DNA from: Isoetes taiwanensis
Taxonomy: Eukaryota > Streptophyta > Lycopodiopsida > Isoetales > Isoetaceae
Assembly (NCBI GenBank): GCA_021234155.1
Contig: JAJEKV010000054.1
Coordinates: forward strand, 3,383,622 to 3,447,621
Direction: 5' to 3'
Length of the DNA stretch: 64,000 nt
Both the position numbers and the translations under genes were made by a program. Shown here piece after piece: positions 3,400-53,861 of the stretch. Below the pieces are notes generated by a model, which did no database searches, had not been told where the DNA came from, and saw nothing but the letters and a program-made list of their open reading frames with translations. Positions within the stretch are counted from its first letter, which is position 1. Each line of letters opens with the position of its first letter.

Positions 3400-5370
3400 C
3401 AACACAACTTTACCATTGGTAAATATCTTAAGCCCGAATCCCTATTTGTCATAAGATACTACATATTTAACCTTGATATTAAGTTCAGAAAACACAAGGA
3501 GCAAGCGTGAGTTGATGTATAGACTTTTTATTGGTAATATACATCATTCAATTGCTTCCCCCTAATATCGGACAACGTGCCCCCTCTGCGACAGATATCT
3601 AGCCTTCATTGCCATGGATATCCAGCCTTTTCAGCTTAGAAGTTTAGCATGCAAAAGAACATGGAAGTTCAGGGCTAGAACTACAAGGGCAACAGAAATT
3701 GGTAGTGGAAAAAAATGAGGAAAAGTGGTCGTGGAGATACTGCTTCAACTGAACTGGATCATAATACTCTGAACCACCAGGCAAAATAAGGGAGTTAACA
3801 GAGGCCATCATACGCCTTGGGTGATGATGCACCCACCTTTGGTAACACTTTTAAGAGAAACATAAGAAGTACCAGTGTTGATATAAATCCATTAGCAATG
3901 GTGAATGCGAATTTGGATGCAATCACGCCAAATGGGTTAGGCAATGGGCAAGTAATGGGCGCACGCTTTAACAATTACTCCCAAGTGCTTTGCCTAGCAC
4001 TTTAACTTCACATTCCATGTCATGAAACATGACAGCTGTGAGAACCCATATTCAAAACTCCATAGTAAGACCGTGGGTGGGTGGGTGGGTGGGTGCTGTT
4101 TTTTACATCATGCCACATTGACAATCCATGAGGACATATGATGGACCCACAGAGACTTGAAGAAAGGTAAAAGCTTATTACTAGAAAGGAGGTTGTTGAA
4201 ATGTCATGTGTTTTGGCCAAGGAGTTTAACAAAATAGTTATGGAAGGTTGTACAATACAAGATTATAACCACCAAGTAATTCAAGGTTTCCTCTTTGGCG
4301 ATTTCTATACTTTAGATGCTAGCTAAAGTGGCGAATTTTCTTTTTTATGCAAGTTGCACCATAATACCAAAGCAAATGTTTGATTAAGGACATAGAAATC
4401 TACAGAAAGACCAATTACAAAAATAATTATATACTTGTTATTGTATATGCAAACACTATATGGAACAATAATTGCTTGTGTTGAATCAATAATTGAGTTG
4501 TTTCAAAAGCCTCAAGATCCATCACTTCATAACTTGATTGGCAACCATGACAGAAAAGGCAGTCACTTTCGCAACAGACATAAATGTAAGCTGGCATTTT
4601 TTTTTACCTCTAAGCCTATGGTGTGTTGCCACGTGGCACACATTCTCTTAGGGAATGCTAGGCTAGATTGATGCTCTTTATTTTTACCTTATCTTCTTAC
4701 ATTTTTACCCTACATTCTATGTTTTACCTGTGACATTTCAGCATAACATACGGTCTGAATACGTAAATTATACTACCACGTCACACATACATGTCACCAT
4801 GACAAGTACTTGAGAGTCGTAAAGAGTTGCGCCTAGGGGGCGACCTCGTATGTTGCACATGTATATTAAACATATGCAATTAAACCCCCTTGCCAAGTGG
4901 CAAAGCCCCACTGGTCCCTTCTAACCTAAACCTAAAAGTTCATGTAAAAGGAACAAAAGGGGAAACCCTAAACCTTTCCCATTTTCGCATTTTGGCTTCC
5001 CTGAGCCATTCCGGTCAAGTCAAGCTGCTATTCTGCATTAATAGGTGCCGCCGAGTCGTGTTTGCACAACAGTTCTCTCAGGAGCAACCGTCTTCAACAA
5101 GAACGAAGGCATGGATGCGATTCGGGGAGTTGGAGCAAGCCAAGGATCAGGTAATCTGCGATTCTGTTGTGCAAAGCCGACTCTTAGCCCGGCAATGAGC
5201 TAGGATAGTATTGTCATGTGCTTATGTTTATTCACGCTTCGATCCATTGCCAAAGGATTGGTATCAGGTGGATGGCCCCTGTCAGCTTGGCTGCAAAGGG
5301 GATGAACTCCGCCTTGCAACACAATGGGAGCATCGTAGAAGAAGTAGGGGACGTCACAGTGGTATCAAAG
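3400..5370. other. no recognised gene
   Basis: There are only short, unconvincing reading frames. A GGGT run lies at about 4074-4094. A stretch at 4960-5160 looks like a plant leader and first exon (AAACCCTAAACC near 4960), but its 102-residue frame was not recognised. Confidence 0.5.
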
Positions 5371-5373
5371 CAT

Positions 5374-5577: not shown

Positions 5578-5640
5578 CTCACAGAGTGCGCCCCAGGCAT
5601 TTTCAAAAATTTTGAACACGGCTCTCGCGCACTGTGTGAG
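5578..5640 (+). repeat. 63-bp hairpin, copy 1
   Basis: The arms CTCACAGAGTGCGC and GCGCACTGTGTGAG pair with one mismatch. A second inner stem is built from CATTTTCAAAA and TTTTGAACACG and is more degraded than in copies 2 and 4. Same orientation as the other copies. Confidence 0.9.
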
Positions 5641-5790: not shown

Positions 5791-5853
5791 CTCACAGAGT
5801 GCGCCTTGGGCATTTCCAAAAGTTTTGAGAATGCTTCTTGCGCACTGTGTGAG
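5791..5853 (+). repeat. 63-bp hairpin, copy 2
   Basis: The same outer arms as copy 1; the inner stem pairs GGGCATTTCCAAAA with TTTTGAGAATGCTT. It ends 96 bp before the TATA box of the H3-like gene. Confidence 0.9.
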
Positions 5854-5949: not shown

Positions 5950-5957
5950 TATAAATA
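5950..5957 (+). promoter_or_regulatory. TATA box of the H3-like gene
   Basis: CCTATAAATA lies 113 bp upstream of the ATG at 6063, followed by a pyrimidine-rich leader and TTAGGGTT (telo-box-like). The second gene of the locus has the same CCTATAAATA core, which supports a true RNA polymerase II promoter. Confidence 0.65.
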
Positions 5958-6062: not shown

Positions 6063-7143
6063 ATGGCCCGCACCAAACAAACTAGTCGAGTGGTTATGCC
6101 AGACGATTACACCAGCGCCCAAGTTCTTGCAGCTCAACAGAAGGCCAGAGAGGCTCAAGAGCAAGCCAGGAAAGAAGAAAATCCTAACCCTAATCTATAT
6201 GTTGAGGAGGAGGACCAACAGCAACAAGACGAACAAGAACAACCTCAGAACCCTGATGCCCAAGAAAACTCGTAGAATCAGGGAAATGGCCAGGAGAAGG
6301 ACGACGAGGGCGAGCTGATACCAGAGGAACTAGCGCAGCGGCTAAAGAAAATGGCCAAGAGGAAGAAGGCAGCAAAGAGGAAGAGAATTGCAGAGAAGGA
6401 GGAGCGCAGAAGACAAATGAAGGAGCACCAGAAGCAAAGGGGTTACCATAAGGAAGCGGGAGCCCGACAGGCCACCATCCTCTTCCTCAGATATCGAGTC
6501 GGGCGAGGAGGTTACGAGAGTTCCCAGCCCAGCAGAAGGCTCGGGACCTTCAAACCCAGATAACGAGGAGGAAGAATCTGCAATAGCACCTCCATATCTG
6601 AAGTGACTGAAGCCAACAACTGACCACAAGAAGGGCAAACCGGCACGGGAATCCTTCGTACTCAAGCAAGAGCCGGAATACGGGAAGAAGTTGAAGGAGT
6701 ACCAGGAGTACATGAAGATGTACGAGGAGTACTCAAAATACTATGAGGCAAATAAGGTAATGTACGTGGAGGGAGGAAGGCCAACCAAGAAGAATACCCT
6801 AAAGCCGCCCCCAGAGAGACCCGTACCACCTAAGAAACCAATAAAGAGAAAGGCAGACTCCTATTTTGCAAGAGCTGATCGGGAGATTCGACATTTTTAG
6901 AGGAGCTACGGACTGCTAATTCCAAGGGCTGCCTTCGCAAGATTAACCCATGAAATCTTGCAGGAATTTGACAAGACCAAGTGAGTAACAGATGACATGT
7001 TACTTGCATTGCAAGAGGCAGCAGAGCAAAAGTTGGTCCAACACTTCGAAGATTCCCTAGCATGTGCTCTCCATGTGAAGAGAGTCACTTGTATGCCTAG
7101 AGACATGAAGTTAGCTAGGTTCATAAAGAAGGAAGATTGCTAA
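6063..7143 (+). pseudogene. histone H3-like protein with a long internal extension
   Basis: The ATG at 6063 opens with MARTKQTSR, which matches the H3 tail (MARTKQTAR) at 8 of 9 residues, including Lys4. A roughly 260-residue insertion follows: a Q/E-rich part, a basic part (RLKKMAKRKKAAKRKR, near 6327-6380), an acidic Ser-rich part, a Tyr/Glu helix (EYQEYMKMYEEYSKYYE) and a basic PPKKPIKRK stretch. The H3 fold runs from 6877 to 7128: [49 protein letters not shown]. The length would be about 359 residues against 136 in H3. In-frame stops lie at 6273, 6604, 6898 and 6982, with one frameshift near 6410-6470; the stop at 6898 replaces the Gln of REIRRYQ. There is no intron. Fold assignment is near certain; origin and function are inferred. 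It is a dead gene as it stands. Confidence 0.88.
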
Positions 7144-7292: not shown

Positions 7293-7353
7293 CTCACAGA
7301 GTGCGCCAGGAGCGTTTTCAAAAGTTTTGAGAATGTCTCGCACACTGTGTGAG
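7293..7353 (+). repeat. 63-bp hairpin, copy 3 (61 bp)
   Basis: The outer arms are CTCACAGAGTGCGC and CACACTGTGTGAG, with the inner TTTTCAAAAGTTTTGAGAA conserved. It lies 150 bp after the stop of the H3-like gene. Confidence 0.9.
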
Positions 7354-7493: not shown

Positions 7494-7556
7494 CTCACAG
7501 AGTGCGCCAGGACCATTTCCAAAAGTTTTGAAAATGCCTCTCGCGCACTGTGTGAG
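7494..7556 (+). repeat. 63-bp hairpin, copy 4
   Basis: The best preserved copy: outer arms as in copy 1, inner arms CATTTCCAAAA and TTTTGAAAATG. It lies 177 bp before the second TATA box. Confidence 0.9.
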
Positions 7557-7732: not shown

Positions 7733-7740
7733 TATAAATA
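7733..7740 (+). promoter_or_regulatory. TATA box of the H2B-like gene
   Basis: CCTATAAATA lies 119 bp before the ATG at 7852, almost the same spacing as in the H3-like gene. AAACCCTAAAA at 7699 and TTAGGGTTTT at 7720 flank it as telo-box-like motifs. Confidence 0.65.
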
Positions 7741-8000
7741 TGACCACAACCCTCATTTGCACCCTACTCTATCACTCCTCACTTCAAGGTGATTTTTCAA
7801 CTCCCAGAGGCGCTTCTAGATCTGTTTGATAACCCCATCAGCCTCAACATCATGGCTACCTCTGCATTCAGGCGCACTGCTCATGTGGCTGAGGCTGACA
7901 TCAACTCGGTCTTCATTGTTTTCCAAAAGGAGATCGATGTGGATGCCACCATAAATGCCACAACTTTTTACCAAGAGATCATGATTGAGTTCCATGCCAA

Positions 8001-8005
8001 GATTG
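8001..8005. repeat. copia target-site duplication, left
   Basis: GATTG directly precedes the 5' LTR and matches 13377-13381 exactly. Confidence 0.95.
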
Positions 8006-8543
8006 TGTTAGAACTACATGCCTAAGTAATAAATTTGAACAGATGGCAATTAGTTTACATTACACTTGGTTGACATTTATACATGGGTTTTGCATGAAGG
8101 AAAAAGAATAAAAAGAGGGAAGATTAGACGAAAAGGACACAGGAGAAAAACAGAGGAAGAGAACAGGGGTTTTGTTTTTTTTTAAAGCAGGTCGAAAAGG
8201 CTGACGTCGAACTGGCCGGATTTGTCAAGACGTGTTGGGTTGGTGAAGCCGAGTCGTGTATCCGCTCTAAGCTGCCGGATTCCTCGCTCTAAGCTGCCGG
8301 ATTCTTCTTTGTAAGGTGCCGGATTTCTACCGTAGTAAGCTATCAGATTTGGTTATAGATTGCTTTATTTTATATCCCGTGGTGGTTTCGCAAAGAGTCC
8401 GCCTGCGGTAGTATTACGCGGTGGGCATCAATTCGATTTGTGCGGGGAGATCCTTTGTGGATATAAAGAAGGTGTAAGGGAGAAGATTGAACTTGGTTAT
8501 TTTCTGGGTTCAATTCCGGACTCAAAGCTTTTTGATTCTAACA
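8006..8543 (+). repeat. 5' LTR of the copia element
   Basis: 538 bp, starting TGTTAGAACT and ending TTCTAACA, so TGTTAG/CTAACA are the short terminal inverted repeats. It is mostly co-linear with the 3' LTR but differs from it in patches between about 8220 and 8430. Confidence 0.95.
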
Positions 8544-8546
8544 TCC

Positions 8547-8557
8547 TGGTATCGAGC
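8547..8557 (+). promoter_or_regulatory. copia primer-binding site
   Basis: TGGTATCGAGC begins three bases after the 5' LTR. The usual plant copia site complementary to initiator tRNA-Met is TGGTATCAGAGC; one base is missing here. Confidence 0.8.
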
Positions 8558-8576
8558 TTTTGAGTCTAAAAGGGAG

Positions 8577-9494
8577 ATGGCATCTAATAAGATTGCCGCT
8601 TCAATACTTCTTTGATGTCAAGGTATATAAAGGAGGTTCTGGTTTCCAAGCATGGAAAATGAAGGTTGAAAAGGCTTTGGAAGCAGAAGGGCTGTGGGAT
8701 TTGGTCCGTCCGGCTCACCGAAAAAGAGAAGCAAAGGCGGGTTTCTATGAAGAATGAAGTGGAGAGTCATCAAAGCCCGAGGTAGCAAATGGAATCGTGA
8801 AAGGCCGCAAAGGATGCCGCAAGAGATTTAGCTCAAGCAAAAGGTATTATCATTTCAAAACTTGGCTATGGTATTATTGCTTCAATTCATAGCATGAATC
8901 CCACGAGATATGTGGCAAAGTATTTGTTGAATGAATATGAGCGACTAAGCGCATCTCGAGAGACATAAATTGGAACAGAATTAAGAATGTTGAAATATGA
9001 AAGTGGTCAAGATTTGATTGAGTTATTTGATAAAATGGATGGAATATTTATGGATTTAGAAGGGGCTGCGCCTCTTTCTGCTCAATCAAAAATACTTTAT
9101 ATTTCAGATGTATTTGCTGCATATGATGAAAATCTTGCATCTTTAATTGCATACTATGTCTAGAACTAAAGAAGAAGCTATAAGTATTGCAAGAACTGAA
9201 ATTACACAAAGAGAGGCTAGAAGGAGTTATGATCAAGGGGGAGATAGTATTTTATATTTTGGGAGAGGAAGAGGTAGAAGTAAGGATGTAATATGCTATG
9301 GTTGTGGAGAGACCGGGCATATTAAGCCCAACTGTACTAAAATCAGAGGACGTTCATGCTATGCTTGTGGAGGAGCTGGCCATCTGGCCAATATGTGTAC
9401 AAAAAGGGGAAGAGGACGTGGAAGTTTTAGGGGATCCTCTACTAGAGGTGCATCCGAAATGTTACTTTTTTCAAAGCCAACCATAGGTCTTTGA
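8577..9494 (+). pseudogene. copia gag (broken)
   Basis: The start ATGGCATCTAATAAG at 8577 is followed by an early stop near 8613. The next segment has the gag core signature (GFQAWKMKVEKALEAEGLWDLV), and further frames continue to 9147-9494. There two CCHC zinc knuckles are intact, CYGCGETGHIKPNC and CYACGGAGHLANMC, with Arg/Gly-rich flanks typical of nucleocapsid. At least three frame breaks are required. Confidence 0.85.
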
Positions 9495-9573
9495 CGTATC
9501 GAGAAGAAATTTCGAGGAGGAGGTAAAATCATATGCTTTATCAAATTTATGTGATAAAAATGTATCTAACCCC

Positions 9574-11082
9574 GTGGGTTATAGATTTCGAGCTGAAAAA
9601 TCCGTGATGCAAAGTTCAAAGATATTAAGAAATCTTGAGACTAGTAAGCTCAGATGCGTGCGTATGGCTAATGGAGAAAACCAAAATGTAGAAGCTTGTG
9701 GCGTGTTAGAACTCATAGGAGAAAATGGAAAAATTATTACTATTGATAATGTGTTGTGTGTACCAGGGATGATAAAAAACTTAATCTCTGTAGCTGATCT
9801 AGTTGATAAAAATTATAAAGTCTTGTTTGACAAGCATATGTGCATAGTTCATGATAATGGAAAAATAGTATTATATGCAAAAAGAATTGGAAATCGTTTT
9901 GAGCTTTGTCCTAGAAGTATAAACATTCTATTAAGTGAAGTTGGAAAGGAAAACTCAATGGAATTGTGGCATCAAAGATTAGGCCACACAAATTTGAAAA
10001 ATATAATGTTTATGAGAAAACGCAAGCTATTGGATGGTTTAGATTTTGCAGATAATAGTGAAGAAAGCACTCCGTGTCATGGATGCATGTTGGGCAAGCA
10101 AAATAGAAAACCCTTTCCCATGAAGGGTGAACGGGTAAATGAAAAATTAGCCCTAGTCCATTCGGATGTATGTGGGCCTATGAGAGTTAGAAGTGCTAGT
10201 GGAAAATACTATTTTGTGTCTTTTATTGATGACTACACAAGAAAAGCTAAGTGGTACTTCTTAACTCATAAAAGTCAGGTTTTCAACTCATTTAAAGCTT
10301 ATCTTGCAGAAGTAGAACGTGAAACAGGTGCTAAACTAAAATGTTTAAGATCAGATAGAGGGGGAGAGTACTTATCAGATGAATTTAAAAGATTTTGTTT
10401 AGAAACAGGAATCAAAAGACAATTAACTTGTAGAGGTACTCCTCAGCAGAATGGTGTCTCTGAAAGAAAAAATCGAACGGTAATGGAAGCAGCACGAGCT
10501 ATGTTAAAGCATGCAGGTCTTCCAAAGTTTTTGTGGGCAGAAGCTGTAAATACTGCATTCTATGTTCAAAATAAAATTTCAAGCAAAGCCCTAAATGGTC
10601 AGATTCCAGATGAGTTATGGACAGGCAAACGTCAATCAGTAAAACACTTCAAAGTCTTTGGTTGTTTAGCATATTCAAAGGTAATAGCTGACAATATATC
10701 AAAATTGGATGATAGAAGCAGAGAAACATATTTTGTTGGATACGATAAGGAATCAAAAGGGTATAGGCTCTATGATCCAAATAAAAAGGCAGTAATTGTA
10801 AGCCGAGATGTCGTTTTCTTTGAAAATATATTATACAAAGATCGTTTTTTAAGTACTAACAAACAAGATCGAGGTGCAGATAAAGATGCAGATAAAGATG
10901 TTAACTGGGAACCGATAGATTATTTTGATGATGAGGAAGAAAGAACCATTGTCAATCAAGCAGAAGAAGAAGCTGAACAGGAAGGGTTGCGTACGTGCAC
11001 GCGCCTCGTGCACGCTGCGTGCGTGCACTGCGGCTCTGCATACGATAACGGCGGAACCAGCTCCGGAGACAATAAGACGTAG
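9574..11082 (+). CDS. copia pol, part 1: protease end and integrase
   Basis: A 502-residue frame. It starts within the protease-linker region (MANGENQNVEACG, NVLCVPGMIKNLISV). The protease DSG active-site motif is not visible upstream. The integrase zinc-binding motif is WHQRLGH with CHGC. The catalytic D,D,E core is seen as HSDVCGPM, LRSDRGGEYLSDEF and TPQQNGVSERKNRTVMEAAR. The frame runs through the GKRQSVKHFKVFGCLAY region and is lost near 10985 in an abnormal GC-rich patch, so its last ~35 residues are probably not native. Confidence 0.93.
   Translation: MGYRFRAEKSVMQSSKILRNLETSKLRCVRMANGENQNVEACGVLELIGENGKIITIDNVLCVPGMIKNLISVADLVDKNYKVLFDKHMCIVHDNGKIVLYAKRIGNRFELCPRSINILLSEVGKENSMELWHQRLGHTNLKNIMFMRKRKLLDGLDFADNSEESTPCHGCMLGKQNRKPFPMKGERVNEKLALVHSDVCGPMRVRSASGKYYFVSFIDDYTRKAKWYFLTHKSQVFNSFKAYLAEVERETGAKLKCLRSDRGGEYLSDEFKRFCLETGIKRQLTCRGTPQQNGVSERKNRTVMEAARAMLKHAGLPKFLWAEAVNTAFYVQNKISSKALNGQIPDELWTGKRQSVKHFKVFGCLAYSKVIADNISKLDDRSRETYFVGYDKESKGYRLYDPNKKAVIVSRDVVFFENILYKDRFLSTNKQDRGADKDADKDVNWEPIDYFDDEEERTIVNQAEEEAEQEGLRTCTRLVHAACVHCGSAYDNGGTSSGDNKT
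10983..11045. repeat. GC-rich self-complementary patch in pol
   Basis: A roughly 60-bp stretch rich in GTGCACG and GCGTGCGTGCAC steps stands out sharply from the AT-rich element. It coincides with the frame break between integrase and RT. The frame that continues beyond it (GISFDTSQYGRDETGRS) stops at 11216-11218. Confidence 0.75.
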
Positions 11083-11229
11083 GAGAAGGACTGAAGCTGA
11101 ATTGCTTAGAGAAGGGATATCTTTTGATACTTCACAATATGGAAGGGATGAGACTGGAAGAAGTACTAGGAAAAAGTACTTGTTGAACGCTAAGATACAG
11201 AGGAAAGTGAACAGGTAATTCCTGCTCTT

Positions 11230-12828
11230 ATGTCTGTGTTAGAAATTGATACCCCGAATAACTATAGTGAAGCCGTAGAAAGTCTGGATTCAGATAAATG
11301 GAAAGATGCAATGAATGCAGAATTAAGCTCTTTTGATCGTACAGGAACATATAAACTGGTTGACAGACCTACTAACAGGAATGTTGTTGGGAATAAATGG
11401 ATTTTTAGAATTAAACAGGGGCCAGATGGGCAAACGCAGAAATTTAAAGTCAGACTAGTAGCGAAAGGATTTACTCAAAAGGAAGGTATTGATTATGATG
11501 AAACTTTCTCCCCGATTGTTAAATTAACAAGTGTCAGAGCAATTATGGCTATTGCTAATATGCACAACTTAGAGTTGCATCATATGGATGTTAGCACAGC
11601 ATTTTTAAATGCAGACCTGGATGAAGAAATTTATATGGAGCAGCCTCCTGGATACGAAGTTGATGGAGATAAGGTGTGGAAATTACAGAAGGCAGTGTAT
11701 GGCCTAAGACAAGCTCCACGTCAGTGGTATGTATGTATTGATAATCACTTGAAAACACATGGTTTTGGAAAATTAAATATGGATGGGAATGTCTATATCT
11801 ATAGGGAAAATGAATACTTTTGCATAATTGCAGTATATGTAGATGATTGCGTAATGGCTGCTAACGATATTGATTGTTTAAAGCATTGCAAAGATATTCT
11901 GAATAAAAGGTTTCAAATGACAGACTTGGGGGAACTTAAGCAGTTATTAGGTATGGAAATTCATAGAGATAAAGAGAAGGGATTCATAGCTATTACTCAA
12001 AAAAGAAATATTTTAGGCATGCTTAAAAGATTTGGGATGACAGAATGCAAATCGGCAAATACTCCAGTAGCAACTGGGCAAAGAATCAGCTCTGAGATGT
12101 GTCCCAAAACAAAAGAAGAAGAGCATATCATGATGAATCGACCTTATAGAGAGCTTATTGGATGTCTCCAATACGTATCAGTTTGTACACGTCCTGATAT
12201 TTCATATGGAGTGAATATGTTAAGTCAATTTCTAAATAATCCTGGTGAAGGCCACTGGAAATGTGCGAAACGTATTTTAAGATTTTTGAAAGGCACTCAG
12301 AACTATGGTCTTGTATTCAGATGTAAACATGGTATAAGATTATTACTTGAAGGCTTTGCAGATGCAGATTGGGGAAGTGATCAAGACACTCGTAAGTCAA
12401 GGTCTGGATATGCCTGCTTGCTAGGAGGGTCTGCTATCTCTTGGAAAAGTAAGAAACAAACCTCTATTGCACTTTCTACAGCAGAAGCTGAATATGCAGC
12501 GGTGTCTCTTGCATCTAGAGAAATTGTCTGGCTTAGGCGACTTCTAGCAGAGTTAGGAATTATTCAAGAGGGGCCAACAGCATTATATTGCGATAGTACA
12601 AGTTGTATTGCCATGACTAAGAATCCAGTCTTACATGAAAGAACAAAGCATATTGAGCTACATAATCACTTTGTACGTGATCAAGTAAAGAATGGAGAAA
12701 TAAGTGTCTTGTATAGACCTACTGAGATACAGTGTGCTGACATTCTTACAAAAGCATTAGCAGAATCTAAGTTTAAAGTATTTCAAAAGGATTTAGGAAT
12801 AGAAGAAGTTGGAGCTATTACCACTTAG
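11230..12828 (+). CDS. copia pol, part 2: reverse transcriptase and RNase H
   Basis: An open 532-residue frame with all usual RT_copia blocks: NKWIFRIKQGPDG, KVRLVAKGFTQKEGIDYDE, MDVSTAFLNADLDEEIYMEQ, the AVYGLRQAPRQWY block and the catalytic YVDD. RNase H follows with GFADADWGSDQDTRKSRSG, SKKQTSIALSTAEAEYAA, LYCDSTSCIAMTKNP and the ADILTKAL terminus. No stop or frameshift, which contrasts with the broken gag. Confidence 0.97.
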   Translation: MSVLEIDTPNNYSEAVESLDSDKWKDAMNAELSSFDRTGTYKLVDRPTNRNVVGNKWIFRIKQGPDGQTQKFKVRLVAKGFTQKEGIDYDETFSPIVKLTSVRAIMAIANMHNLELHHMDVSTAFLNADLDEEIYMEQPPGYEVDGDKVWKLQKAVYGLRQAPRQWYVCIDNHLKTHGFGKLNMDGNVYIYRENEYFCIIAVYVDDCVMAANDIDCLKHCKDILNKRFQMTDLGELKQLLGMEIHRDKEKGFIAITQKRNILGMLKRFGMTECKSANTPVATGQRISSEMCPKTKEEEHIMMNRPYRELIGCLQYVSVCTRPDISYGVNMLSQFLNNPGEGHWKCAKRILRFLKGTQNYGLVFRCKHGIRLLLEGFADADWGSDQDTRKSRSGYACLLGGSAISWKSKKQTSIALSTAEAEYAAVSLASREIVWLRRLLAELGIIQEGPTALYCDSTSCIAMTKNPVLHERTKHIELHNHFVRDQVKNGEISVLYRPTEIQCADILTKALAESKFKVFQKDLGIEEVGAITT

Positions 12829-12832
12829 GCAT

Positions 12833-12843
12833 GAGGGGGAGAT
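12833..12843 (+). promoter_or_regulatory. copia polypurine tract
   Basis: GAGGGGGAGA lies directly before the 3' LTR and would prime plus-strand synthesis. Confidence 0.85.
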
Positions 12844-13376
12844 TGTTAGAACTACATGCCTAAGTAATAAATTTGAACAGATGGCAATTAGTTTACATTA
12901 CACTTGGTTGACATTTATACATGGGTTTTGCATGAAGGAAAAAGAATAAAAAGAGGGAAGATTAGACGAAAAGGACACAGGAGAAAAACAGAGGAAGAGA
13001 ACAGGGGTTTTGTTTTTTTTTAAAGCAGGTCGAAAAGGCTGACGTCGAACTGGCCGGATTTGCTGAAGACGTGTTGGGTTGGTGAAGCCGGAGCTGTGTC
13101 TGCTCTAAGCTGCCGGATTCCTGCTCTAAGCTGTCGGATTCTTGCTGTAAGGTGCCGGATTTCTACTGTAAGCTATCAGATTTGATTATAGATTGCTTTA
13201 TTTTATATCCTGTGTGGTTCTGGCAGTAGTCCAGTTCTGTGTAGTATTCTGTGTGGGCATCAATTCGATTTGTGCAGGGAGATCCTTTGTGGATATAAAG
13301 AAGGTGTAAGGGAGAAGATTGAACTTGGTTATTTTCTGGGTTCAATTCCCAGACTCAAAGCTTTTTGATTCTAACA
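12844..13376 (+). repeat. 3' LTR of the copia element
   Basis: 533 bp, TGTTAG to CTAACA. Outer parts match the 5' LTR closely; the middle differs in patches. Confidence 0.95.
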
Positions 13377-13381: not shown

Positions 13382-14107
13382 GCCTTCTCTAATAAACTCC
13401 CCCCATGCATAGGTTATTTTGCACCTAGAACAGCCCTCCGTGCAGCTCTGGATGATATCCCAAATATAGACAAGTATCTAGAAAGTAAAGCTGCTCGCAT
13501 GCCAAATTACATGACTATATCCATAAGTAGAAAGAGATATTTCTCCTACACTGTAGCTGTAGCTATCTTTTTGTCCCAAAGAGCCCAAACCCAGATAGGG
13601 GAACCTTCCGTTCGGCCTCTGGAGATTGAACCCATAGCCACAGAAGCAGAAGCAAAAGAGCAAATGCTCCTGGAGTATGAAGAGTCAGAACAGGAGAAAG
13701 AGGTAGAGGAAGGACAGGGTTACGACGTGAAAGACATCATCCACATCGACCCCATACAAGAAAGGCAGCAAGCAGAAGAAGATCTTCCAAGCTTCGAAGA
13801 AGGGTTGAGAGTAACAAGGACAGCTCCTCCACTTGGGTTAGGCATCACCAGTCTAACCCCAGTCATCATCCAAGGAGAGGAGTACCTGACGCTCCATGAT
13901 ATAAAGAACCTCTCAGAGTGCAGAGACAGGGTGGATGAACTCCTGCACCTTCTATGCCAACAGCCCGACCTTGACGACTTCATCGACCGGGAGACTCAAG
14001 ACTTTCCCATCAGCATCAGGGAGGCCCACACGTACTCTAGCCAGTCATCATCGGACATCGAAGCTTAAACCAGCATCCGACAGATGATGACGCAACAATA
14101 GCTACCC

Positions 14108-14739
14108 TTGGAGGAGAAATTTATAGCACTCCAAGAGTGGATGGGCATCAGAGGAAAAACAACAAGCGCACTCCTGCCCAGCACCTCTGCAGTAGCGCCA
14201 ATTGGATTAGAAAGAAGCGGCATCAACTTGACCTCTTTCAGGTCCATGTTCGGCGACTACAGAGAAATGATAGCAATACCGGTTGATGAGTACTCTGGAA
14301 GACACAGGGCTGGAATAGAACCGGAGAAGAAACAGTGGAGGGAGGACACGACAAAGCCCTCAGAATATACCTGCCACTCCTCACCGACGGAAGGATAGCG
14401 GTTATACACCGCCAGTTTAGCCCACGGGGAGAAGAAGGAGTCTTCATGATGATTGCCCTCTCGGGATTTGGAAGGCATGATCAGATGCCTCCAAACATCG
14501 GCCATATCATCCTGGTCAAAAGGACAATAGATTTGAGCGTTTCCGACTTCGCAGTTCTATATAGCAAGTTGGCCGTCACTGCAGTCTACACGTCGGATAG
14601 AAGGATCGAAGACCTGGTGACGGCACTCCAAGGTGGTACGGCCACCAACATCCTTGTAAACTTGGGGCGAACAGCTGGCACAGCCCAAGTGAAGAAATTC
14701 TTGGAAGACAACCCGACATATAGAAGATTCCAGGACTAG
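14108..14739 (+). pseudogene. unrecognised C-terminal domain of the H2B-like product
   Basis: Two overlapping frames (14108-14398 and 14335-14739) join into about 205 residues that could follow the acidic region of the H2B-like gene once the stops at 14066 and 14099 are discounted. Visible parts include a GINLTSFRSMFGDYREMIAI segment, a KALRIYLPLLTDGRIAVIH segment and a well-ordered end containing GHIILVKRTIDLSVSDFAVL and EDLVTALQGGTATNILVNLG. It looks like an alpha/beta globular domain. I recognise no family. It could also be a separate third gene. Confidence 0.5.
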
Positions 14740-14898
14740 ATTAAAACTTATCTTGTACTTGTATTACCATGTAGATGATGATGATGGATGGACCACCCAT
14801 CATGGTGATATATTATTTTGAGCATCAGTGCTGTGTGCTAATATGTATGTACGCTTCCGTTGTATAGGACTCCCATAGAGGGCGTGGGACGAATGACA

Positions 14899-14956
14899 CC
14901 TCCGTGTTCCTCACTCGGACACTTGGCCATCCCAAGTGGTCCGAGTTAGACGGAGG
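14899..14956. repeat. 58-bp imperfect hairpin after the H2B-like gene
   Basis: Outer arms CCTCCGT and ACGGAGG enclose inner arms CTCGGACACTTGG and CCAAGTGGTCCGAG, which pair with one bulged C. It lies 160 bp after the last stop of the locus and is unrelated in sequence to the 63-bp family. It may mark the 3' boundary or a transcript end. Confidence 0.8.
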
Positions 14957-15790
14957 GTATGTAGTTGCCACGGGAGGGGAATTCCCCGTATTTGTACGAT
15001 GGGAGCATCGTATAGATTCTGGGAGCATCACAACTTAAAGAAAGACACCTTAGTTGGTACTAGTTTGATAGATATGCATGGTAAATTTGGCTCTATGATA
15101 TATACTGCAAGTCTGATTGATATACATGCAAGATGTGGATTGTTTGCAGAGGCAAAAAATGTTTTTTACAACTGTCATTACCAAAACGTGAATCTTATTA
15201 GGATATGTTGACATAACCAATAGGCACTAAATTATTCTATGCAGATGCAAGTGCAAGAGGTTTTTTTAGATGCTATTACATTGTTTACGGTTTGAAAGTC
15301 TGCAACACCTTATAAATGTAGATCAGGGGTGAAATATACATGAGGAGGATGGGATCACTTCCAAGAAATTTAAAGACAATGCTTTTGCTAACAGTGCACA
15401 GTGAAATGTTGGTTATATGCCCGTATATGTGGATGCACATAAGGTATTTGTCAAGCTTACAAGCTGGAATGGTGTTCATGAGTATACTTATGGGTTATTG
15501 TGGTGATGGACATAGTGAAGAAGCTCTGAGATGTCTTGAAGCTATGCATGTAGAGGCATATCCAAATGTTGTCACTTTTCTTTCCAGCCTAAAAGCTTGC
15601 CGCAACATGAGAAACATAGAAAAAGAACGAGAAGTACACAATGACATTTCACAAAAAGGATATATTTTGATGGTTGTTGGCAGTACATTGATTTATGTAT
15701 GCAAAATGTGCTTCAATAGGAGAGGCACATAAAGTTTTCAATGATATAGCAATTCGAAATATTGTTCCATCAAATGCAATGATAAGAGCA
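14936..15790 (+). pseudogene. pentatricopeptide-repeat (PPR) remnant
   Basis: Several frames show PPR signatures: DTLVGTSLIDMHGKFGS, SLIDIHARCGLFAEAKNVF, ILMGYCGDGHSEEALRCLEA, then a MHVEAYPNVVTFLSSLKACR stretch, KEREVHNDISQKGY and KCASIGEAHKVFNDIA. This is the plant PLS-type repeat pattern of organellar RNA-editing factors. Stops and frame changes are frequent, and neither a transit peptide nor an E/DYW domain is seen. Confidence 0.8.
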
Positions 15791-42780: not shown

Positions 42781-45700
42781 TTGAGCTATGGCACCACAGA
42801 TACAGAAATGGACATAAATGGACATGAGGTGATTATCAGCTATAATTTGAAGTTTATGGAAATTTTCAAGATGCTGACATGTGAAGATCCAGTTGCTTCA
42901 TCTTGCAACAGTTTAACTACCTTGCCTTTCACTTGGCTCCTATTGATTAACGTAAGAGCTATTCTCCAGTCTGCATCTAGTGAAAAGACTAATGAAGACC
43001 GCCTTATCTAGCTTCGTGTATTTCACATGAGGCTACACAAATGTGGGCGTGTTGGAAGGAATGTTTGAAGCAAGAATAATGCTCCATCCGGTTTTCAGTG
43101 CCATATACAAAATTAGAGCTTAATAATCTTCCATGGTTGGTACTTACCAAGCCTCTGGGCAACCCTGAATCTCTATAGCCTAATTCGGGCTGCAATTTCT
43201 ATGAGCTTTTCTAATTTTCTCCACTGTAGATGGAAAAAATTCTAGATGTAATGGCAGGAATTGATTTTCGCTGAGCTGGGTTGTTATGTAGATAGGTTAG
43301 AATTGCTAGAATTGTTGTAGAGGTGATTAGGTAAGCTGCTAACCACTTTAATCATTGAATCCAGCTTGTGGCACGACAAAAAAAAGAATTTATGCCCTTA
43401 AAAGAGTGCTTAACACAAAGAAAGAGAAGAAGGGGGTGAGACGCAATATAGGGAAGCTTGTGAAAACTATTGCAATAAAGGAAGAACTTCTCTCTATGTT
43501 GAATAATCCAGCAAATATTACTTTACGAAGAATTGTCATAGAAATGGTTCTAAATGAAGTCTTTGCTAAGCTGGACGCAAACGAAGTCCAAACTAATTGT
43601 GATACATATAGTTGAGCTATAGAGCTGGGTATAGAGCTTTGTTCAGGTCGTTTCGAGATGCTCTGAAATGTTTGGGAACAAAAAGGGTCATTGTGCCTCG
43701 TCCTTACACCGTAAAGTGTATTAAAAGGAGAAGAAATTTGATAGCTAACATTCTCGGTGGAATGCATTCAATTGAATCAAGTATCCCAATATGCCAGAAA
43801 GCAAAGGCTAAGAACAACAAATGCAATATCATTGGCATAGAGGCTTTGCTGAAATTCATGGTAGTCTTTTATCAGGTATGCAACACAACCAACCTCTTTG
43901 GAGCTTCTTTTACTTCTTGACATCTGCATCGTAATCAGATAATTGACTATTTGATGGCTATGATTCAGTTTAGAAGTTCCATATTGGTGCTTCTTAAATA
44001 TATCATATGGAAATCGTCCTTTATTGTGTATTAGTTGTTCATGCAACAGATATTATAAGCTTTATGGTCATGAGTCTTTACCTTCTATTTCAGAATATTA
44101 TGTTGCAGGCTACTTCAAAGCATATCTCAGCTACAAATGTAGCGAAAAATAGCAATAATTGTACTTTTCATAGTTTTGTTCACATCTTTTAGAAAGTTTA
44201 GACTCTTGCTCTATATGTTGTGTTGGCAAACCCAAAAGGATGCAAGACCCCCTTGCTCAAAAACAAACAACAATGAGGCTGGTCTTATCTTTCTACGAGT
44301 TTGTAAACAAGCACAAAAAACGTTGTCCAGGATATCACGTTATCACCATGTCTAACCAATACTCAAAGCCTCAGGCAATATCCAAGCTGCCAACCATAAT
44401 GACCTATGTTGCTGCAATATGCTAACTATCATTATGATCAACTATTTTTATTGTTGCATGAAATAGGATGTAGAAAATGATTGGCGTATTTACTAGAATT
44501 GGCATAAATTATGCTATTGTTGGAAGTCGAGCAAACGTTTATGCAGTATCATACAAGCTTTCTATTCGATGTTTGGTTCACCTTCACATTGGCTTTTACA
44601 ATATTGCATTGGATCTTACCCAATTCTAAAGGCATGATTCCTTTGAGTGGCATCATAACTAAGGTCAACATAACCGAGTGTTGTGAGGTTGGACCTAACA
44701 AAGAATTGAATGAGAGGATGGGTTTGCAACGTTAAAAAAATGGATGCCGCAAGAGTATATATAGATGAACTATAGCAGATGATAATAATTTAGTCTAGGA
44801 GTTCTAAACTGTATCTTGCATCTTGTCCTTTTGATGCCAATATTTTTCATGCTTGACTAAGTTTCAAGTCTTTGCTAGTTGCATATGCAGTTTTGTTTTA
44901 TCTAGCTACTGGCTTTTTCTAAAATGGCTTCTAGTTATGGTAGTTGCTACATCTCATCTTTTAACTTCTATGATTGAGTGGTTTAGGCTACTAGCTCATA
45001 ACTTGCTTGGTAAGGCTACTGATATGAACAAGATATAGAGGAAGGTAGGCTATTAATATGAACAGGATATCATTCATGCATCCTAACGTTCTCACTATTC
45101 ATGCAACTTGGGCTAAATGTATAAAATTATGCCAATAGTCTTCTTTATCCTATTGGCATAATTTTGTACATTATTAACATGGCTTCATTATTTATTGAAT
45201 TAGATTTATGAAGCAGATGTGCAGGGCAAGTTGGAAGTATGTCTTAAGCTTGATTTGATGGAATTGACGAGTAAACATAAGTTTAAGAGAGTGTCATTAG
45301 TTTTAATAAATGATGCTCTTCATCTGCATTATTTCAAAAAAGGACAAGTTAAGAAAAAAAAGAGGGAAGAACTTATGTGGTGGCTAGGGATGTTTCAAGT
45401 GAAAAAAAAAAGAATTACACAGTATTAAAATGGGTGTTTGACCAAACAGAGTTGCCTAGACTTATTGCCTAGATATCATGAAGATAATTTGAGGGGCAGG
45501 TGATCAGTTTTATGTAAAAAACATCATTGCCTGCATATCTAAGTCTCAGTTTTATAACATCATTGCTTGCATATCTAAGTCTGCTGGTGATGGATGGTAG
45601 CCGAATTTGATAGAATGATTGTGCAAGAAACACTGAAATTTCCCTATATTGTATCATTCCTGTGAGTTAGGCTGGGATCTCTGATGTCCAAATTCCATTT

Positions 45701-52409: not shown

Positions 52410-52567
52410 ACAAGACGTTCAAGTGTCAAGGGGTTGCCCTTTGAAAACCAGTACTGATAACTAGTTATTAGCATGCACCAATAGTGATAACAAAAAAACA
52501 AGGACTTTTCCACATGAGTCTGATAAGATAGCGAAGTTATTAACTTGAATGCTTGTTGTGAGTTATG

Positions 52568-52816
52568 TAGGTTTAGGGTTTTCTCTATTCTTTGTATGCA
52601 CTATTATAGGATGTTAATCTTGTTATTATATTCATATAAACTTTGATTCAGCAGATAATTTGTTTTTATGTAGCTGTAATAGCCCATGTGATAACACGAG
52701 GTTAATTTTTGGAATTTTGAAAGCGAGAAGTTTGGTAATGTTCAAAAATATCAAAGATCTCACCATTATCATACAAAACATAAGCTTCTCATCATATACC
52801 ATGCTATGCTTCCTAA
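52568..52816 (+). repeat. 250-bp direct repeat, copy 1
   Basis: From GGTTTAGGGT through TGCACTATTATAGGATGTTA to CATGCTATGCTTCCTAATC. It is about 95 percent alike to copy 2 at 52954-53201, by eye. Confidence 0.9.
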
Positions 52817-52953
52817 TCACCTCAAGGCAAGTGGGTCTGCCTTCCGGAAGATTTTCCATCCATTCATATCAAGAATAGCAAATGCTTGTTATGCAAAATC
52901 TAGGTTTAGAGAATCGGGCGAATTATTTGCCTTGAATGCGTCATGGAGTTAAG

Positions 52954-53201
52954 AAGGTTTAGGGTCACCTATTCTTTGTATGCACTATTATAGGATGTTA
53001 ATCTTGTTATTACATTCATATAAACTTTGATTCAACAAATAATTTGTTTTTATGTAGTTGTAATAGCCCATGTGATAACATGAGGTTAATTTTTGGAATT
53101 TTGAAAGCGAGAAGTTTGGTAATGTTCAAAAATATCAAAGATGTCACCATTATCATACAAAACATAAGCTTCTCATTATATACCATGCTATGCTTCCTTA
53201 T
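52954..53201 (+). repeat. 250-bp direct repeat, copy 2
   Basis: Second copy, offset by about 385 bp, with a few substitutions and a 2-bp length difference. The 135-bp spacer is not repeated. Confidence 0.9.
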
Positions 53202-53861
53202 CGAGGCCTCATCCGTAACACCTATTTAGGATTCTAATTTTGATTTGGTTGTTATATCTTAAAAACCTTGCTATTATTGACCTTCGACCCATTTTCCAAG
53301 GGAAGAGATCTACAATGATCATTTCCTATCTCAAAGAACTGGAAGGGAATTGTGTTCAAACACAATAATGCTTACTTCAAAAATGAAAGAAGATAAATAA
53401 GAGCACACTTTTTTAAACCATTTTCGTAAGCACATGCATTGAGTCGTTGGCTTGTAAACCATTTTCATAAGCATACGGGTTATAAAATGCATTGAGTTTA
53501 TGTCATCGTCCGTTGAGCCATCCATACTAGTTAATCTTACACGTCAAACATAGATGTGCACGAACAGCAAGTTTATTAGATCATGTATACGCAATTGATA
53601 GAACAAAACTTCTCATCATCCGTGGCTGTCAGGTTCCTTTGTGACCGTCTTCCTCATTTCCACTCCTTTTGTTATGATAGTTGAAAAACATAACAAATGA
53701 TTTGGGGCAAATGTCTGGCAAATGCCCATTTGCTAATATTTGCTTTTAAAATGCCAATGAGCTTGCACCCAAATTACGTGTGAAAGCAAGTTAGTGTATT
53801 TGGGTGCTCTCAAAGCCATCTAATGAGGAAAGTACTTAGCTCAATATTTTACAATGTCACA

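Follow-up and report, generated by a model that had tools for sequence, protein, structure and literature searches.

The stretch analysed here, hereafter the window, covers 64,000 nucleotides of the Isoetes taiwanensis genome (assembly GCA_021234155.1, contig JAJEKV010000054.1, positions 3,383,622 to 3,447,621) and harbors a histone H3-like pseudogene followed by a second gene in the same orientation, referred to as gene 2, which is interrupted by a Copia retrotransposon. As read from the exons of ordinary genes spread along it, the window is plant nuclear DNA, with Pfam matches to Ribosomal_L6 (1.7e-14), UCH (7.7e-18), SWIB (2.6e-23) and Dabb (1.5e-10); at 15.3-15.7 kb there is also a PPR fragment, whose match to PPR_2 (8.1e-5) lies below the cut-off of that family. 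The features that concern us are the following:

5321..5371, forward strand: possible end of a long terminal repeat (LTR) at 5321-5358, then TGGTATCAAAGC, resembling a primer-binding site, at 5360-5371; tentative
5578..5640, no strand: palindrome 1, upstream of the H3-like gene
5791..5853, no strand: palindrome 2, upstream of the H3-like gene
5950..5957, forward strand: TATA box TATAAATA, 113 nt before the ATG of the H3-like gene
6063..7143, forward strand: H3-like pseudogene, whole, with in-frame stops at 6273, 6604, 6898 and 6982 and one frame change
6063..6089, forward strand: H3-like N-terminus MARTKQTSR, Lys4 context kept, residue 9 position taken by V instead of K
6090..6873, forward strand: charged insertion, about 261 codons long, with many E, K, P, R and Q residues, very basic near 6345-6440
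6874..7140, forward strand: H3 histone fold, alpha-N to alpha-3 (Pfam Histone, PDB H3), ending about where H3 ends
7293..7353, no strand: palindrome 3, upstream of gene 2
7494..7556, no strand: palindrome 4, upstream of gene 2
7733..7740, forward strand: TATA box TATAAATA, 119 nt before the ATG of gene 2
7852..8005, forward strand: gene 2, 5' part, starting MATSAFRR; orphan protein, no Pfam match
8006..13376, forward strand: near-complete Copia LTR retrotransposon inside gene 2, LTRs at 8006-8543 and 12844-13376
13382..14739, forward strand: 3' part of gene 2, coding for an orphan protein; interrupted by stops at 14066 and 14099 and by a later frame change
14996..15032, forward strand: tentative LTR end beyond gene 2 that may pair with the one at 5321-5358, without a convincing target duplication

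Just left of the two genes, 4900-5165 resembles, by eye, the first exon of a host gene, having an ATG and a GT splice site; hence, they may sit in a host intron. Elsewhere in the window, a sequence of about 288 bases is directly repeated at 52531-53202 (two copies, 91.7% identical), and 57 bases at 45116-45172 match their own reverse complement at 80.7%.

The anatomy and the decay of the H3-like gene are read directly from the DNA. The preliminary description had reported an H3 tail start, a long charged insertion and an H3 fold at 6063-7143, and its coordinates proved right. The start MARTKQTSR at 6063 shares 8 of 9 residues with the H3 start MARTKQTAR, and the fold begins at 6874 with ADREIRHF. 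Having been proposed as a check, profile searches recovered a histone: the 178-residue part from 6607, with X written at each stop, matches Pfam Histone (PF00125) at 6.8e-19, the final 52 stop-free codons alone match it at 1.1e-9, and PDB histone H3 chains match the fold at 1e-18. No intron is needed to read this gene, and the same holds for gene 2. The frame of 6063 meets a TAG at 6273 and is then open until 6561, and in the frame of 6064 no stop occurs from 6421 to 6603; given the overlap of these open spans, a frame change must lie between 6421 and 6560, and by eye the switch was placed near 6441-6478. Further stops follow at 6604, 6898 and 6982, ahead of the natural stop at 7141. With four in-frame stops and one frame change, the H3-like gene is a dead pseudogene.

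Between MARTKQTSR and the fold lie about 261 codons, and canonical H3 has 38 residues in the corresponding stretch, so about 220 residues are extra in the H3-like protein. The insertion, in which E, K, P, R and Q abound, matches no Pfam family above its cut-off. Lys4 and its neighbours are present, as the preliminary description had it, K9 is replaced by V, no ARKS is found in the tail, and a single ARK is left (in QARKE). H3 tail residues 9-46 were sought in four stretches of the insertion, where 654, 79, 535 and 384 of 1000 shuffles matched as well; because these stretches score like shuffles, the recognisable H3 tail amounts to the first nine residues only. An apparent relic of the H3 tail just before the fold (GGK-APRK), suggested by the HMMER alignment, was dismissed on the same grounds (535 of 1000 shuffles as good).

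An insertion that belongs to no family and has a frame change inside it might point to a chance or assembly join between an H3 start and an unrelated H3-fold fragment, an account that we regard as very improbable. Allowing one frame switch, the composite frame keeps 4 stops, against a mean of 10.4 in dinucleotide shuffles, and is more open than 299 of 300 of them. Position-1 G+C also exceeds position-2 G+C in all five segments, position 2 being the lowest in four, and the TATA box, start and stop make up the layout of one gene. Since only 1 of 300 shuffles is as open, a join was rejected as the main reading, and with it the suggestion that a misjoined fragment explains the insertion.

Gene 2 lies downstream of the H3-like gene. 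The Copia element inside it has LTRs 92.8% identical to each other, the target duplication GATTG and recognisable RVT_2 (2.3e-75), rve and zf-CCHC domains. Together with the stops, this diverged insertion indicates that the copy carrying the H3-like gene and gene 2 has been dead for long. The 3' part of gene 2 retains, with one frame switch, 2 stops versus a shuffle mean of 13.0, none of 200 shuffles being as open. The 5' part would reach it one base out of phase with its open frame, which implies either a small indel close to the Copia insertion or two parts that never were one gene; we infer that they belong to one gene. None of the gene 2 pieces matches a Pfam family above cut-off, none of 8000 scored candidates qualified as a relative at E 0.01, and scanning prokaryote genomes with the end of gene 2 gave no match. 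An AlphaFold model of 139 of its residues has a mean pLDDT of 40.3 and is uninformative. An SSSDIE-like stretch occurs in both the H3-like protein (6478-6500) and gene 2 (14045-14065), with 6 of 7 residues shared (E 3.3 and 4.7), probably by chance.

Concerning the regions upstream, each gene stands behind two palindromes of 61-63 nt, whose starts lie 213 nt apart before the H3-like gene and 201 nt apart before gene 2, followed by the same TATA box. The palindrome arm has 9 matches in the window versus 0.77 expected, and 8 of these are the arms of the four palindromes. When folded as DNA, each of the four beats all 200 shuffles, with the same outcome for the two that were folded as RNA too. 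No known RNA accounts for the palindromes, the window giving no Rfam match at gathering scores. A duplicated promoter module extending over the whole upstream region, considered from a lenient alignment, was set aside: outside the palindromes and TATA boxes 224, 457 and 410 of 500 shuffles were as good. The genes are also similar in composition, G+C at the three codon positions being 0.57/0.36/0.53 for the H3-like gene and 0.56/0.38/0.53 for gene 2, as compared with 0.45/0.36/0.26 for Copia, and five host exon pieces show third-position values (0.33-0.46) below both. Within the H3-like gene, third-position G+C varies by segment from 0.43 to 0.67, so composition should be taken as soft evidence. 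From the presence of two genes at one place, we infer that the H3-like gene and gene 2 are two genes of one unit.

One way of building such a unit is an LTR retrotransposon, non-autonomous and, without the Copia insert, at least about 4.3 kb long, which took up an H3 gene and has gene 2 as further cargo. It would account for TGGTATCAAAGC at 5360, which resembles a tRNA-Met primer site, and for the 38 bases directly before it, which have a 37-base counterpart at 14996-15032 (equalled by 3 of 1000 shuffles). With lenient gap costs only 2 of 500 shuffles score as well as the flanks, but so do 15 of 294 random window pairs. The best target duplications differ at one position in five, and the sole purine run of at least 9 in 14601-15040 is at 14972, close to the supposed end. 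Moreover, LTR elements do not typically carry a TATA box in front of each gene. We consider this construction improbable. Among the matches obtained here, no polymerase, integrase, capsid or other hallmark gene was recognised in the two-gene unit, Copia insert aside, nor a giant-virus or other viral hallmark beside its genes. A caulimovirid domain is absent among the Pfam matches in the window; endogenous caulimovirids are described in ferns, gymnosperms and some lycophytes, and a tRNA-Met primer site for one of them, in PMC13308828.

To place the fold, it was compared with both canonical H3 and CENH3. The alignment with canonical H3 is ungapped, with 43-44 of 89 residues identical (about 48%), and the H3-like protein lacks, in the fold as in tail residues 9-46, the near-complete conservation of canonical H3.1/H3.3. 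It shares with canonical H3 the MARTKQT-R start, the ALQEAAE, KRVT and MP-D motifs, the length of loop 1 and the C-terminal end, but differs in its extra residues and in having no ARKS site. At the place of the H3.1/H3.3 chaperone site, the fold reads DMLL. Residues that look like those of CENH3 are the P at the R63 position, the A at Q68 and the LL at 89-90. With CENH3/CENP-A the protein has in common a divergent long tail, a P before the alpha-1 helix and LLALQEAAE, but it has no W at the start of alpha-2 and its loop 1 is not lengthened, as it is in CENH3, of which a lengthened loop 1 is a mark. From the F of alpha-1 to ALQE it counts 24 residues, as H3 does, against 25 in the CENH3-like variants P0005, P0007 and P0008, and against 26, 25 and 26 in Arabidopsis, rice and maize CENH3 (rice and maize counted by hand); aligned with H3.3, the Arabidopsis CENH3 takes two additional residues. 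Judged from these alignments, the fold is far from ordinary H3, with some CENH3-like residues.

These likenesses bear on the reading in which the locus is a decayed host H3 variant, perhaps a retrocopy or a lineage-specific relative of CENH3, with a very long tail, gene 2 being a host gene that evolves fast and is unrelated. Plant CENH3 commonly has a MARTK start and a divergent tail (the tail here is longer than in familiar plant CENH3s), and the P, A and LL residues are as in CENH3-type proteins. A search with the fold gave 4 matches among 158 candidates, the best two, P0007 and P0008, being long-tailed H3 variants of 202 and 224 residues; MPRDM is common to the query, both of these and P0009, whose tail has normal length. 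A Chlamydomonas H3 variant, P0004, also starts with MARTKQTSR and goes on with a divergent tail of its own. BLOSUM scores put canonical H3 (182-189) and CENH3-type rows (150-185) about equally near the fold. The spacing of 24 residues argues in the other direction, since most CENH3-type rows used have 25-26, and so does a tree of 13 rows, where none of 10 inner branches has full support and the query sits on a long branch without a supported place. In that tree the three canonical H3 rows group with the query outside them, hence the fold does not fall inside ordinary host H3, a placement that had been named as one which would speak against a new histone; apart from this the tree gives no firm grouping. 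Finally, a palindrome and TATA layout in common with an orphan neighbour is unexpected for an ordinary host retrocopy. On balance we think a host variant less likely than not.

Long tails on histone folds are not new. The preliminary description held that neither canonical H3 nor CENH3 has such an insertion, which for CENH3 calls for caution: Talbert et al. 2022 (PMC9145170) report cenH3 tails of 170 and over 520 residues, a point that also favors a host variant. In the same paper, viral H3s that occur singly, without other core histones, are described in six cases (xenomavirus, DSLPV1, phycodnavirus and mimivirus-related MAGs, Sylvanvirus); they have 73-87% fold identity to the H3 of a possible host, and three of them have tails extended by 35, 53 and 68 residues. 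It also describes a bracovirus H4 (CvBV-H4) with 38 added residues, i.e. a core histone with an added tail on a viral unit. A long tail on an H3 fold therefore has precedent, in cenH3 as in viral H3. The present gene differs from the single viral H3s of that paper in its lower fold identity and in an insertion that is far longer and follows the H3 start. What is unusual in it is the combination of an intact H3 start, the loss of the other recognisable tail motifs and a partner gene. The preliminary description knew neither that the gene is broken nor that a second gene with matching promoter signs follows it.

Searched with the full read-through, 2468 candidates yielded 6 that passed E 0.001. 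Each of these aligned over 24-28% of the query, a share close to that of the fold, and among the matches of the protein searches none was demonstrated to have the insertion. Within the window there are no other copies of the H3-like gene or gene 2, apart from one weak stretch inside the H3-like gene (E 0.9). Protein scans of the IMG/VR viral contigs with the H3-like protein and gene 2 gave no relative; canonical H3 as query drew none there either, so this collection says little about viral H3s. The 15-base palindrome arm was found in 11 viral contigs, and with a single match per contig these hits were taken as chance. Nothing ties the H3-like gene to giant viruses. Of the proposal that the locus is a plant-virus fossil or a new histone class, what has endured is an H3-type gene that seems to belong to a unit of more than one gene, foreign or selfish in its look; the viral relative that the first of these might have had did not turn up in the IMG/VR protein scans.

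Our leading explanation, to which we give close to an even chance, is that the locus is the relic of an integrated selfish DNA unit, either an extinct virus or a gene-carrying transposon, with at least two genes. It is preferred because the palindrome pairs with their TATA boxes, the single orientation, the similar composition, the lack of relatives, the intronless reading and the absence of any further tail relic fit together under it. The common promoter signs and the similar composition are themselves observations. Against it count that no hallmark gene was recognised, that the upstream regions are otherwise shuffle-like, the phase break of gene 2, the one ARK left and the softness of composition.

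If the locus is such a relic, its workings may be sketched as follows. Each gene of the unit would have been expressed from behind a palindrome pair and a TATA box, the palindromes possibly serving as sites for a dimeric regulator or for replication. The H3-fold protein would have kept the first H3 residues and the fold, the rest of the tail having been swapped for a long charged segment. Its fold could pair with host H4 and enter nucleosomes on the DNA of the unit itself or of the host. The retained ART-K4 end could still meet the writers and readers of H3K4, no ARKS is left of the silencing sites at K9 and K27, which may have allowed evasion of silencing, and the long charged and basic segment might add contacts with DNA or protein. 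In its most specific form, which we put forward tentatively and think less probable than otherwise, this would be an extinct land-plant DNA virus or mobile element with an H3 of its own, perhaps derived from CENH3, that kept the K4 end, removed the K9/K27 silencing sites and shared palindrome-controlled promoters with gene 2, thereby keeping its own chromatin active or riding on host chromosomes.

The viral histone cases cited here from PMC9145170 come from viruses of amoebae, algae and animals, the word "plant" occurring 0 times in its main text, and among open-licence papers none was found on a plant element with its own H3. Should the locus prove to be a host gene, it would represent an H3 variant with a long tail and an unusual build. 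A selfish unit would provide a land-plant case of an element carrying its own histone, and the keeping of K4 together with the loss of K9 and K27 would, if true, amount to a direct escape from plant heterochromatin.
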